From an uncultured Granulosicoccaceae bacterium (GTDB taxonomy: Bacteria > Pseudomonadota > Gammaproteobacteria > Granulosicoccales > Granulosicoccaceae): a stretch of DNA of 64,000 nt. Shown in pieces: positions 51,531-55,983 of the stretch. Each line of letters opens with the position of its first letter. Within the stretch, counting starts at the first letter, position 1. Under the pieces are notes generated by a model. The model had not been told where the DNA came from and searched no databases. It worked only from the letters and a program-made list of their open reading frames with translations. The stretch is from positions 62,001-126,000 of the forward strand of contig CALAJN010000002.1 of the NCBI GenBank assembly GCA_937922675.1. The letters are read 5' to 3'. Made by a program: the position numbers and the translations under genes.

Positions 51531-51965
51531 ATGTTCAAAGCGTTGAGAGGCTCATCGCCCGGCGTACTGTTCACACGGTGGCTGATCGCGGCGATCGTGG
51601 TCTTTGCTACCTACAACCCTACCGGTACATCCATAGGCCATTGGGTGTTTACCCATGAAAACCCGATGGATGCGTGGGTCGTGCTGGTTGCAATCATCAC
51701 GCTGCTGGCCAATATCGCGCTGCTGATTGCAGCCTGGAAGGCCTTGGGCAAACTCGGCGCGATCATCGTCGGGGTGCTGTTTGCCGCCATTATCTACCTC
51801 TCCTTGCAGGAGGGCTGGGTCTCAACAGGCAACACTCAATCGTTTGAATGGCTCGCGCTCATTCTCGTCAGCGTCTTTCTTGGCATTGGCCTCTCGGGAG
51901 CCATTCTGTGGCGAAGAGCCACAGGACAGGTCGTTACCGATGAAGCGCCTGACGTTGATCACTGA
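51531..51965 (+). CDS. Small four-helix membrane protein (DUF6524-like)
   Basis: A 144-residue inner-membrane protein with four hydrophobic segments: around 15-27, 47-66, 73-92 and 104-125. The segment FTRWLIAAIVVFATYNPTG resembles the DUF6524 family as I recall it; function unknown. ATG at 51531 follows rarA after 47 bp and is convergent with the minus-strand TPR gene. Confidence 0.75.
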   Translation: MFKALRGSSPGVLFTRWLIAAIVVFATYNPTGTSIGHWVFTHENPMDAWVVLVAIITLLANIALLIAAWKALGKLGAIIVGVLFAAIIYLSLQEGWVSTGNTQSFEWLALILVSVFLGIGLSGAILWRRATGQVVTDEAPDVDH

Positions 51966-51996: not shown

Positions 51997-52015
51997 GATC
52001 ATTGAATCAATGATC
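51997..52015. terminator. 19-bp perfect palindrome between convergent genes
   Basis: GATCATTGAATCAATGATC has 9-bp arms around one central base and overlaps the stop codon of the minus-strand TPR gene. It lies 31 bp after the DUF6524-like gene. As RNA it would form a short stem with about 7 usable pairs; no T-run follows. A bidirectional transcript end is plausible; a protein-binding dyad cannot be excluded. Confidence 0.45.
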
Positions 52016-53077
52016 TGTCATCAGTCCTGGCAGGTCTTGTTCAGCGGCGTCTATCAGCGATTGCGACTGATCTCGAAGGGATGCGATTTCAGTTTCATGG
52101 CTGGCTGCATCGCGAGCCTCCAGAACATCGGCAAGGGCGATCATCATTTGCGGTAGACCTGTTCGCGCGACGATGTCCCGATAACTGACCTCCGCTTGCT
52201 CCAGACGTCCTTGCAGCGTATCGACTTCCGCGACGTGCTCTTCAATGAGCCAATAGCCAGGAAAGGTCTCGTTGGCCATGGTGAAGTAGTGGTGCGCCTC
52301 GTCCAGCTGTTGCTGCTCCAGATGCACAATCCCACGTTGCAGTTGCATCCAACCAAGAGCATAAGCCGACGTGCCGAGGAATCGCTCGCTTGCGACTTCC
52401 AGCCATTGCTCTGCTGCTTGATAGTCGCTTTGTGCAGAATGCCAATGAGCCATTCGCACGGCGCTGATCATGCTTGGAGCGGATGCGTTCAGTTGCTGAT
52501 AAATCGCACCGGCTTCAACGTGGTTTTCGGTTTGCATGAGAGCATCGGCACGCAGACCCTTGATCCGCAGCGCGGTGGCCTGATCGACCAACAGGGCATT
52601 GCCCGCGATATCAAGATCGCTCATCGCTTGATCAAAGCGGTGCACCGCAACATTGATACCCGCTCGTGTCAGAAACGGCCCGGCTTTGTCGCCGGACAAG
52701 GCAAACGCTCTGTCAATGGCGTCAAGCGCAGCACGATAGTCTGTGGCATTGCCTGAAAGGCGTGCACGGTCAAGGCGTGCTGATGCGAGTCTTTCAAGGT
52801 GTAGCCACGAACGCTTGTTGGCACGAACGAGCCTCTCGATTGAATCGATGGTGGCGTCTACCCGCGCAAGCTCTTCATCGAAGGAGCCGCTTGTTCTCAC
52901 GGCCCCGGCGGCTGGAACCTCGCCGGTAGTGCCTGTGTCAACCGGAATTGAAGCTCGGTTGGCACTTGCCGGCGCCGGCGCTGATATCAGCACGCTCGTG
53001 CACAACAGCGCCGCTCGCAGCCAAGGTGCAGGTGATAAGGGGAGAGGCTTCCTTGCCATCGTATCTGCTGTACTCAT
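52007..53077 (-). CDS. Exported TPR-like protein, partner of the split DUF4331 genes
   Basis: A 356-residue protein with a signal peptide (LRAALLCTSVLISAPAPASA) and helical repeats from about residue 60 to 335 that fit the TPR pattern weakly (SAYALGWMQLQRGIVHLEQQ; FPGYWLIEEHVAEVD; EQAEVSYRDIVARTGLP). No catalytic motif is visible, so a periplasmic scaffold or recruitment role is the best guess. It is the last of three co-directional genes: 10 bp separate it from the DUF4331 C-terminal half gene. ATG start at 53077; a second ATG lies 6 codons in, directly before the signal sequence. Confidence 0.8.
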   Translation of the reverse strand: MSTADTMARKPLPLSPAPWLRAALLCTSVLISAPAPASANRASIPVDTGTTGEVPAAGAVRTSGSFDEELARVDATIDSIERLVRANKRSWLHLERLASARLDRARLSGNATDYRAALDAIDRAFALSGDKAGPFLTRAGINVAVHRFDQAMSDLDIAGNALLVDQATALRIKGLRADALMQTENHVEAGAIYQQLNASAPSMISAVRMAHWHSAQSDYQAAEQWLEVASERFLGTSAYALGWMQLQRGIVHLEQQQLDEAHHYFTMANETFPGYWLIEEHVAEVDTLQGRLEQAEVSYRDIVARTGLPQMMIALADVLEARDAASHETEIASLRDQSQSLIDAAEQDLPGLMTDH

Positions 53078-53087
53078 CCCCGTCGAA

Positions 53088-53699
53088 CTACGGCTGGTGT
53101 GGCGCTGCTACGAATGGGAAAGCATCCCCGAACGCGAGGTCGTTTGCAGCCGGGTTGAGCACGCCGACCAGATCGCCCGGGGTTTGCGGTGGCTCGTCTC
53201 CGGTGAGTTCAAGCAGGGCGACAGCCAGAGTGACGTCAATGACTGGATCGGTCAACAAGCGTCCGTTCGGGAAGCCGCTGGCAGTAGTGGTGTCAATTTT
53301 AAGGGTGTCGGGCAGGATCAACGGCACAGCAAACTGCGCACAGGTACCCGTGCCGTCGCCCACTACCGTGCAGGGAGTTAGCCCAAGGTCAGTGAGCTGC
53401 TGATCAAGCGCGCCGTGCAGAAATGTAAGGCTTCCCAGGATTTCGGGTACGAAATCACCCGCGCTATCGTTGACGGGGTCCGCCATGTTGTAGGCATCCG
53501 TGCTCTCGATCAGGGCTGTCGCAATTGCAGGCATGCCCATTCGGTCCACGCGGGTGAATGTTTCGATCGCGTCTGTCGAGAAGGCAAACGGCTCAGCCTC
53601 TGGGGTATCCGCTCCATCGTCGTCATCACTGCTGCAAGCGGCCAGTACAAACAGTGGAAGAGTCAATGCAACTACTGATAGTTTCTTTAAGGTTTTCAT
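53088..53699 (-). CDS. Lipoprotein resembling the C-terminal half of DUF4331
   Basis: A 203-residue protein with a lipoprotein signal (VVALTLPLFVLAAC, cysteine at 22) and an acidic spacer (SSDDDDGADTPEAEP). The remainder contains the landmarks of the second half of DUF4331 proteins: TRVDRMGMPAIATALIES, then DAYNMADP and FPNGRLLTDPVIDVTLAVAL. In one-piece family members these follow directly on a segment like the end of the next protein upstream (LQTWATTAS). It lies 9 bp after that gene. Function unknown; probably membrane-anchored in the periplasm. Confidence 0.8.
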   Translation of the reverse strand: MKTLKKLSVVALTLPLFVLAACSSDDDDGADTPEAEPFAFSTDAIETFTRVDRMGMPAIATALIESTDAYNMADPVNDSAGDFVPEILGSLTFLHGALDQQLTDLGLTPCTVVGDGTGTCAQFAVPLILPDTLKIDTTTASGFPNGRLLTDPVIDVTLAVALLELTGDEPPQTPGDLVGVLNPAANDLAFGDAFPFVAAPHQP

Positions 53700-53708
53700 G
53701 ATGATGTC

Positions 53709-54332
53709 TTATTGAGAGGCGGTAGTGGCCCAGGTTTGAAGCGCGCCGCCACCTGGCATGACAGTCTCCACGGGCAGTTGCACGGCAAGCACTGTGATGT
53801 TGAGGCCGGCTACATCGTCCTGAGTCGGGTCGAAGGAGATAACGCCGGTGGATATCGTCTCGTTGAACCCGCTTGCATTGAAGAAGAAGGGATCGTCGGC
53901 GAGGCCAGCGTAGGCTGCGATATCGTCACCTGACAGAACAGTGTCCACGGCGCCTTCGATCAGTGAGGTATCCGAGGCATCGGAGACGCGCAGGCCCCAA
54001 TCTCCGTCAACATTCTGTGCAAAACGCACATACAGATCGAAGTCGGATACCGCGTCCGGGGTCTCCGAGGTGTCAAAGTGCATTCCGTACAGCACGCTCT
54101 CATCGAAGGCCGCTTCCATGCCGGGCGCGCTGAAAGTACCAAAGGTCACGATCAGGTTCAGCTGCCCATCCGCATGCCAGGCGTAATAGTCACCAATGTC
54201 AGCTGACAGCTGAGCGGTTGCGCCAGGCGCTTCCTGGTGGTCGGCTGCCTGCAGGCCGCACGAGGCGATCAAGGCCAAGCCGGCGGCTAGCGACCTCGCT
54301 TTGGTCCGTGGTAGGGCATTTCGTTGTTGCAT
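53709..54332 (-). CDS. Exported protein resembling the N-terminal half of DUF4331
   Basis: A 207-residue protein with a signal peptide (SLAAGLALIASCGLQAA) and the family opening ADHQEAPGATAQLSADIGDYYAW, shown here in part; the typical HxEAP and DxxDxYAF-like landmarks are present. Downstream segments (LYVRFAQNVDGDWGLRVSD; DDPFFFNASGFNET; ITVLAVQLPVETVMPG) match the first half of DUF4331 proteins, and it stops right after LQTWATTAS. ATG at 54332 preferred over a TTG 4 codons earlier. First gene of the three-gene run divergent from the ECF sigma factor. Confidence 0.8.
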   Translation of the reverse strand: MQQRNALPRTKARSLAAGLALIASCGLQAADHQEAPGATAQLSADIGDYYAWHADGQLNLIVTFGTFSAPGMEAAFDESVLYGMHFDTSETPDAVSDFDLYVRFAQNVDGDWGLRVSDASDTSLIEGAVDTVLSGDDIAAYAGLADDPFFFNASGFNETISTGVISFDPTQDDVAGLNITVLAVQLPVETVMPGGGALQTWATTASQ

Positions 54333-54412
54333 GTCTGAGCTCAATCTCTGTTCGCATGAATTCGCCCTTGTGTGCCGGGCAACCTCAGTCTACGGGCAAA
54401 CATGAGCGCGAG

Positions 54413-54448
54413 ATGCACCAACTGTATTTTTTTCTGCTGCAGGTGCAT
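54413..54448. promoter_or_regulatory. Inverted repeat in the DUF4331/ECF divergent region
   Basis: ATGCACC (54413-54419) and GGTGCAT (54442-54448) are perfect inverted copies separated by 22 bp that include a T-rich tract. It lies 80 bp from the DUF4331 start and just before the sigma factor start region. A protein-binding site for control of one or both directions is possible. Confidence 0.4.
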
Positions 54449-54470
54449 ACACTACAGGCCGCCGCGACTG

Positions 54471-55118
54471 ATGCTGTCCTTGTCGCGACAATGTGCCGAC
54501 GCGACAAGTGATAACTCGCTACCTTTGCAACAGACTGCTGCCCCGATAGTGAAAGACAAAGCTGATAACGACGAGCTTCGCGGGCTCTTGCAAGCCGCGG
54601 CAACAGGTGACCGGCGCGCCTTTGAAGCCTTGTATTTGCATACCAGCTGGCCTCTGTATCGCATTTTGCTGCGTATGTTGAAAGTGGAGGCCATCGCACA
54701 AGAAGCCTTGCAGGAAGTTTTCATCAAGATCTGGCAGCGTGCTGATCACTACGATCCCGATCTCTCGGTCCCCATGGCATGGATGTCGCGCATTGCACGA
54801 AACCAGGCCATAGACACGATGCGTTATCAACAGATAAGAGTTGATCTGGAATTGGACAATGGCGAGCGATTGCTTGAACAGCTGGTGGATGCATCACCGG
54901 GCCAGCGCCCGGACGACTTTGATTCAGCGCTACCGCTGCTCCATTGTCTGGAGCAACTCGCACCAACACCTCGTTCCTGTGTGGTGCGAGCATTTTGCGA
55001 GGGTTACTCGCAGGAGGAGTTAAGTGCGCAGACTGGCGCTCCGATTGGCACTGTCAAGAGCTGGATCCGGCGTAGCCTGAGCGCACTGCGCCGTTGCCTG
55101 GATCAGTTTCATGAGTAG
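54471..55118 (+). CDS. ECF-type RNA polymerase sigma factor (SigK/RpoE-like)
   Basis: Extracytoplasmic-function sigma factor. Region 2: RRAFEALYLHTSWPLYRIL, ALQEVFIKIWQRADHYDP and MAWMSRIARNQAIDTMR; region 4: LPLLHCLEQLAPTPRSC, EGYSQEELSAQTGAPIGTVK and the end RSLSALRRCLDQF. The ATG at 54471 gives 215 residues; a GTG at 54549 gives 189, closer to the usual ECF length, so the start is uncertain. It overlaps its anti-sigma gene by 8 bases. Divergent DUF4331 genes are the obvious regulon candidates. Confidence 0.9.
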   Translation: MLSLSRQCADATSDNSLPLQQTAAPIVKDKADNDELRGLLQAAATGDRRAFEALYLHTSWPLYRILLRMLKVEAIAQEALQEVFIKIWQRADHYDPDLSVPMAWMSRIARNQAIDTMRYQQIRVDLELDNGERLLEQLVDASPGQRPDDFDSALPLLHCLEQLAPTPRSCVVRAFCEGYSQEELSAQTGAPIGTVKSWIRRSLSALRRCLDQFHE

Positions 55119-55983
55119 TACTGACAAGGAAGAGTGGTGGCTTGTCGAAGCGGGTGAGTACGTTCTCGGTACCCTGCGTGGTCCAGAGCGCGATCTGTTC
55201 GAAAAGTTACTTGAGCGGGATAGCGATGCCAGATCCATGGTGTACTTCTGGGAGACTCACCTGGCAACGCTGGACTCCGTGCTGGCGCAACAATCCGCGC
55301 AATCAGTCGCTACATCGGTACCGAGGTTTGTCTGGGAGGAGATAACACGTCGTTTGGACGACTTGGTCCCGTCAGCTGCCGACACCACATCAATCTCAAA
55401 GCGTGCGGTCAAACTCCATGTCAACGGGATAGACAGTGCCGCAAATCGCTTGCCTCTGTGGCGCTTTGCAGCCGTCGCCTCGATGGTTGCAAGTGTCGCT
55501 CTCGGGGCACTTGTACTCAACCAGTTCAGACTCAACCCGGTCATGTATGCGTCCGAGAATCCCACTGGCAATCCTGTTGGTGCGGACATACCTGCCGTAT
55601 CGGCAGGCGTCGCCGATGACCTTGATGTAGTGGCCGTTCTGAGTGACGAAGAGGGCGCTGTATTGTGGCTTGTGGTTGCGGATGAGACAGACGGTAGTCT
55701 GCGCGCGATCGCTCTGCAAACTCCGGCACAGTCGGACACGCAGTCACATCAGTTGTGGGTGTTGCTTCCTGACGACGGCGGAGTTGAGTCGGTTGGACTG
55801 TTACCCTACCGTGATGGCTCGTCCAGGACTTACCAACTGTCGTCCGAGGCAGCGCTGGAACGATTGAGGGCCGGGGTAGCATTTGCGATCAGTGTTGAAC
55901 CTGCTGGCGGCACCAAGAGCGGCGGCCCGACCGGGCCTGTCATCAGTTCAAGCGCATTCACTCGGGTAGACGACGCCTTGTAA
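55111..55983 (+). CDS. RskA-type anti-sigma factor
   Basis: A 290-residue single-pass membrane regulator. The N-terminal anti-sigma part has the family sequence WWLVEAGEYVLGTLRGPER; one membrane helix (RFAAVASMVASVALGALVLN) is at about 118-137; the C-terminal periplasmic RskA domain contains GAVLWLVVADETDGSLRAI, SHQLWVLLPDDGGVESVG and AFAISVEPAGG-type sequence (about 180-275). It should hold the upstream sigma factor at the membrane until an envelope signal. The ATG overlaps the sigma gene by 8 bases. Confidence 0.9.
   Translation: MSSTDKEEWWLVEAGEYVLGTLRGPERDLFEKLLERDSDARSMVYFWETHLATLDSVLAQQSAQSVATSVPRFVWEEITRRLDDLVPSAADTTSISKRAVKLHVNGIDSAANRLPLWRFAAVASMVASVALGALVLNQFRLNPVMYASENPTGNPVGADIPAVSAGVADDLDVVAVLSDEEGAVLWLVVADETDGSLRAIALQTPAQSDTQSHQLWVLLPDDGGVESVGLLPYRDGSSRTYQLSSEAALERLRAGVAFAISVEPAGGTKSGGPTGPVISSSAFTRVDDAL

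Follow-up and report, generated by a model that had tools for sequence, protein, structure and literature searches.

A predicted SigK/RskA regulon with a split DUF4331 protein and its candidate role in periplasmic metal handling

What does an extracytoplasmic function (ECF) sigma factor control when it stands, together with its anti-sigma factor, opposite three genes for exported proteins? The question is raised by positions 52007 to 55983 of the window, the whole analysed stretch of 64,000 nucleotides from an uncultured Granulosicoccaceae bacterium (contig CALAJN010000002.1, assembly GCA_937922675.1). Two of the exported proteins belong to the DUF4331 family (PF14224) and the third is a tetratricopeptide repeat (TPR) protein. 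Judged from sequence comparison, the sigma pair very probably controls all three as its regulon. The favoured reading, held as probable, is that the set forms a SigK/RskA-controlled regulon for the capture or buffering of a transition metal, of the nickel/copper type, in the periplasm of the envelope. The parts of the locus are as follows.

52007-53077, minus strand: exported TPR-repeat protein, encoded third in the operon (PF14559 above its cut-off; signal peptide by inspection)
53088-53699, minus strand: C-terminal half of DUF4331, a separate lipoprotein (PF14224 profile positions 250-421, E 8e-11, 42.2 bits, cut-off 27)
53709-54332, minus strand: N-terminal half of DUF4331 with a Sec signal (PF14224 to profile position 234, E 1.4e-14, 54.6 bits, cut-off 27)
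54419-54390, minus strand: predicted SigK-type promoter, GGTGCATCTCG-N13-CCGTAG, the second box 63 bases before the ATG at 54332
54372-55118, plus strand: open frame of a SigK-type ECF sigma factor with Sigma70_r2 and Sigma70_r4_2 (likely start GTG at 54549, by alignment)
55111-55983, plus strand: RskA-type anti-sigma factor with one transmembrane segment (RskA_C, PF10099, E 3e-16, 60 bits, cut-off 29)

All five genes lie, in two divergent units, where an earlier note on this DNA had placed them. Its description of DUF4331 as split also holds, as the two genes match complementary halves of one PF14224 profile, which rules out a tandem duplication of DUF4331. The usual form of the family is one polypeptide across the profile (not a Pfam requirement); here the profile is shared between two genes, and each product has an export signal of its own. 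The signal of the N-half is of the signal-peptidase-I type with a predicted mature start of Ala-Asp-His. The C-half carries an LAAC lipobox with a conserved Cys and a Ser at +2. The sigma and anti-sigma genes overlap by 8 bases.

The regulator is of a known kind. The sigma factor contains sigma-70 regions 2 and 4 only, its best PDB match is SigK (4nqw, E 3.7e-22), and the equivalents of SigK Cys133 and Cys183 are both kept in the alignment. The SigK proteins of M. tuberculosis and Y. enterocolitica belong to ECF18/ECF19, where 94% of the ECF18 and 56% of the ECF19 SigK sequences keep the two cysteines; full activation by RskA depends on them (PMC7509140). The genome of the window holds one RskA_C gene and one SigK-type sigma factor above 100 bits, which leaves the window pair as the only candidate regulator found.

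The connection between this pair and the exported proteins is carried by a bipartite promoter motif, TGCATCCA-N13/15-CGTA, present upstream of DUF4331 genes across Proteobacteria. The comparison covers the 80 nearest DUF4331 loci from a scan of species genomes, ranked by similarity and not drawn at random. The earlier note would have been contradicted had DUF4331-TPR sets lacked the sigma pair everywhere else; a SigK-type sigma gene (above 100 bits) was found within the 8 kb flanks of 44 of the 80 loci, at a median distance of 788 bases. In unseeded counts of two-part words, ATCCA-N15-CGTA occurs in 24 of the 80 DUF4331 upstream regions (4-5 for the top shuffle word), and GCATC-N17-CGTA is also far above the shuffles. 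The latter was found separately as the top word of the sigma upstream regions (12/42, shuffles 3-4). Seeding with the counted words and training on the 80 loci gave a two-box position weight matrix with the boxes TGcATCCA and gCGTAt, which exceeds its 99% null at 64 of the 80 DUF4331 upstream regions (about 1 expected) and at 18 of the 42 sigma upstream regions.

The motif is present at all 42 loci with a scored linked sigma gene, compared with 22 of the remaining 38. Among these 38, the genome encodes a SigK-type sigma factor in 21 of the 22 cases with the motif (at least 115 bits in those 21) and in 3 of the 16 without it (p 1.3e-6); at two of the 21, L068 and L137, the sigma gene lies nearby and was missed by the start-codon filter. 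For Acinetobacter and Sulfurovum, also represented in the set, neither motif nor sigma factor was found. Because the motif tracks the sigma factor both in cis and in trans, it behaves as the promoter of the SigK-type sigma factor, an assignment that the comparison strongly supports. The -35 element of mycobacterial SigK promoters likewise has a CATCC core, and the -10 element of the present motif is CGTA. The proposal that the exported proteins are the regulon of the pair is thus upheld by a shared promoter motif and by co-occurrence in cis and in trans.

The window operon itself, a locus outside the training set, carries a site of 13.3 bits against a 99% null of 9.6, and the window holds a single exact match to TGCATCT-N16-CGTA, with 0.03 expected. 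Across the genome, TGCATCY-N16-CGTA has six sites, two of which precede the only two DUF4331 loci. The second of these loci, on contig C20 (L039:2-508), is a single-chain DUF4331 gene truncated by the contig end; its motif scores 17.9 bits, and no sigma gene was found within the 12 kb read. The remaining sites lie before a DUF7282 gene, before a gene for an S41 peptidase lipoprotein, and, in two cases, over long open frames of the opposite strand. A perfect motif stands about 42 bases upstream of the start of the exported DUF7282 protein (L164:1500-1983), whose mature N-terminus is probably Ala-Gly-His; its gene is a candidate further member of the regulon. The S41 peptidase gene (L165:1500-3025) has its motif about 100 bases upstream, possibly by chance. 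A generic sigma-70 promoter scan found none.

The unit that recurs widely differs from the five-gene set of the earlier note. As a rule DUF4331, a large family that ranges in this analysis over alpha-, beta- and gammaproteobacteria, is made as a single chain, and its operon also encodes a TPR protein and a HupE/UreJ_2 permease. A TPR gene is present at 53 of the 80 loci, the permease at 44 and both at 40. In an independent set of 114 genomes of the class, SigK-type sigma factors (at least 100 bits) occur in 9 of 10 genomes with DUF4331 versus 10 of 104 others (p 1.3e-7), and HupE/UreJ_2 in 9 of 10 versus 23 of 104. The genome of the window is the one DUF4331-bearing genome of the ten without the permease.

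The metal reading draws on the predicted mature N-terminus and on these partner families. A predicted cut directly ahead of X-X-His agrees with the signal-peptidase rule in 81/81 single-chain proteins and 11/11 split N-halves. The tripeptide is SSH (once ASH) in the single-chain form and ADH without exception in the 11 split proteins, although the signal peptides before it vary freely. An alignment of 63 proteins shows His3 in every one and His64 in 61, and His64 is also kept in the split proteins of the kind seen in the window. A home-made signal-peptide scan gave a background of about 10% for an N-terminal His (19/198); it found just 34 of 56 DUF4331 cuts and is too crude as proof. The combination of a free N-terminus and a His in third place is well known as a binding motif for Cu(II) and Ni(II). 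The HupE/UreJ_2 and DUF4198 partners are also predicted to begin, when mature, with His. A 2025 study reported nickel binding by a DUF4198 protein (Kd 18 nM), and copper and nickel binding by domains with an N-terminal His that are fused to HupE/UreJ-2 (PMC12537917). Taken with the operon and the regulon, the N-terminus makes transition-metal handling the likeliest role of these proteins, with moderate confidence.

Several observations weigh against this reading. A cut two residues further on (ASS|H) is also permitted in the single-chain proteins, and the N-terminal His could be retained for folding rather than for metal. The genome of the window has no HupE/UreJ_2 permease (no PF13795 match), so buffering or sensing is likelier than uptake, and the role of the TPR protein is left unexplained. 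No motif precedes the window sigma gene (score -0.8), and autoregulation is therefore not supported there. Nor does structure lend help: Foldseek returned nothing below E 0.001 for a model of a single-chain relative, and VIA-align gave a best Z of 5.3, to antibody beta-sandwiches, which is uninformative. No solved structure is related to DUF4331 by sequence.

The strongest alternative, which is unlikely but deserves weight, keeps the same regulon and assigns it to general envelope or redox stress, with DUF4331 and TPR as structural or chaperone-like surface proteins and the His kept for folding. The absence of the permease would suit it, as would the conservation of residues near the His (E5, P7, D16, D19) and of the cysteine pair in the sigma factor, which is relevant to RskA-dependent activation (PMC7509140). 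It sits poorly with the wider neighbourhoods, which are dominated by HupE/UreJ_2 and DUF4198, families with published metal-binding members. His at predicted mature position 3 occurs in 92 of 92 proteins, and it persists in a second kind of split protein at 22-27% identity. The earlier note had proposed a new stress or surface system; metal handling fits better, given the nickel- and copper-binding partner families and the His near the predicted mature N-terminus.

Improbable, by comparison, is a scheme in which the exported proteins are the sensor. Here the DUF4331 halves and the TPR protein would recognise a ligand and release the sigma factor by way of the periplasmic RskA domain, in the manner of the receptor in FecA/FecR/FecI systems, and any effector function would be second. 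In several genomes the genes stand divergent to the sigma pair, which agrees with this, and the C-half, as a lipoprotein, could lie near RskA. However, the sigma factor is linked at 44 of the 80 loci and probably acts in trans at many others, and the set contains no receptor-like protein. Some genomes, Acinetobacter among them, have DUF4331 without the sigma factor, which indicates that DUF4331 works without RskA.

The split itself calls for separate treatment. Congeneric genomes repeat the combination of a split DUF4331 with the TPR gene, the sigma pair or both, so that the arrangement exceeds chance, and in these the TPR homologues come after the split DUF4331. Kind A comprises the genome of the window (G000) with G002, G003, G008, G011, G015, G019 and G020. 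It is accompanied by the TPR gene wherever the contig shows it (the G002 fragment does not). G000, G003, G019 and G020 have the sigma pair next to the split locus; in G015 the distance is about 9 kb and the pair adjoins a single-chain DUF4331, and several of the other loci are cut by contig ends. The motif precedes the first gene, DUF4331-N or CHRD, in 8 of 8 kind A operons. Genes of the CHRD domain (L042:18886-19707; L044:5976-6803; L045:7792-8670) head three of these operons, which have the strongest motifs among the split loci (18-21 bits). The mature N-terminus of the L042 CHRD protein is probably Gly-His.

Kind B (G005, G023, G030) has the motif at 0 of 3 loci and no sigma pair, but keeps X-X-His (L048:1487-13569; L049:5756-18588; L050:8988-19001). 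Its neighbours are a flavin adenine dinucleotide (FAD)/cyclic-nucleotide/Fe-S protein, a protein with several CxxCH motifs and an HbpS-like lipoprotein. Outside the family, clear split-type N-halves were found in one genome (G073) of a sample of 369 genomes of the class, and the split is mainly a Granulosicoccaceae derivative.

An AlphaFold model of the single-chain relative (498 residues; predicted local distance difference test, pLDDT, 89.8; predicted template modelling score 0.91) shows where the chain is divided. With the alignments read by eye, the profile gap between the halves falls between beta strands at about 262-277 and 287-299, so the cut appears to lie in a loop of the beta domain; the C-half would retain one strand and the helical part. 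The N-half of the window was modelled poorly on its own (pLDDT 65) and shares about 20-30% identity with the single-chain form. That the locus is a decaying remnant, a broken gene whose pieces have no joint function, is very improbable: split forms are rare outside Granulosicoccaceae, the genome holds a further single-chain DUF4331 and the N-half has lost two cysteines that are invariant in single-chain proteins, but each half has an intact export signal and at least eight genomes keep both, 52-80% identical, in an unchanged order and behind the same promoter.

The mechanism proposed under the metal reading builds on the gene set, the co-occurrence of promoter and sigma factor and the signal-peptide/His pattern, all strongly supported by comparison. 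RskA in the inner membrane would retain the sigma factor until a presumed periplasmic signal, probably metal or redox state, releases it. The free sigma factor would then use the TGCATC-N17-CGTA promoter (54419-54390) to transcribe the DUF4331-N/DUF4331-C/TPR operon, and act in trans on the single-chain DUF4331 of contig C20. Exported DUF4331 may bind metal through its mature N-terminal X-X-His, and the soluble N-half with the His may reassemble with the lipid-anchored C-half. In most other bacteria the operon adds a HupE/UreJ_2 permease with an N-terminal-His domain; as this is missing here, the function would be binding, buffering or sensing. A broader and more tentative proposal, held with less confidence, would make DUF4331 a so far unrecognised family of periplasmic proteins that bind Cu(II)/Ni(II), and the hallmark product of a Proteobacteria-wide SigK/RskA metal regulon (TGCATCCA-N15-CGTA). 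The Granulosicoccaceae split would then be a two-chain unit, soluble metal-binding and lipid-anchored, without the usual permease.

No paper was found under DUF4331 or PF14224, and searches on RskA/HupE and UreJ/sigma/nickel/copper gave nothing evidently on this gene set. The regulon is thus undescribed in the literature searched, and the split DUF4331 variant is new. The promoter motif and the in-trans comparison assign a regulator and a regulon to DUF4331. A His that never varies near the predicted mature N-terminus, together with nickel- and copper-binding partner families, gives the family a concrete and cheaply testable biochemical role. SigK/RskA pairs would gain a defined target set outside Actinobacteria, and a candidate metal-handling response, widespread in bacteria and undescribed, becomes directly testable.

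Around the operon, a DUF6524 membrane protein is encoded downstream (51531-51965), its position by the split locus conserved in G003. Between the sigma gene and the DUF4331 promoter lies a perfect 9-base inverted repeat, CTTGTCGCG-N12-CGCGACAAG (54479-54508), which could be an extra operator; it is absent from the equivalent place in G003. Anti-phage defence was also considered, and PADLOC gave no match.

Among known systems, the SigK/RskA pairs of ECF18/ECF19 in Mycobacterium and Yersinia share with the window the sigma type, the cysteine pair, RskA_C and the gene pairing. The targets of mycobacterial SigK are of the mpt70 type, whereas those here are DUF4331/TPR/HupE-type genes in Proteobacteria. 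In Caulobacter, the ECF sigma/anti-sigma pair SigF/NrsF switches on envelope proteins (DUF2282/DUF692; gig operon) upon copper (PMC8224329). This resembles the window pair in its working, but the anti-sigma and target families differ as annotated and the likeness is one of analogy only. The Anglerase-HupE/UreJ-2 permeases and DUF4198 proteins are the families of the usual DUF4331 partners, with the same predicted N-terminal His. The main text of the study that describes them does not mention DUF4331, TPR or a sigma factor (PMC12537917), and, as the genome of the window lacks HupE/UreJ_2, the locus is not filed as a member of that metal uptake system. Closest are the single-chain DUF4331-TPR-HupE/UreJ_2 operons, which have the same domain order with the halves joined, the same promoter and the same sigma type; the window differs in having two polypeptides with unlike export signals.

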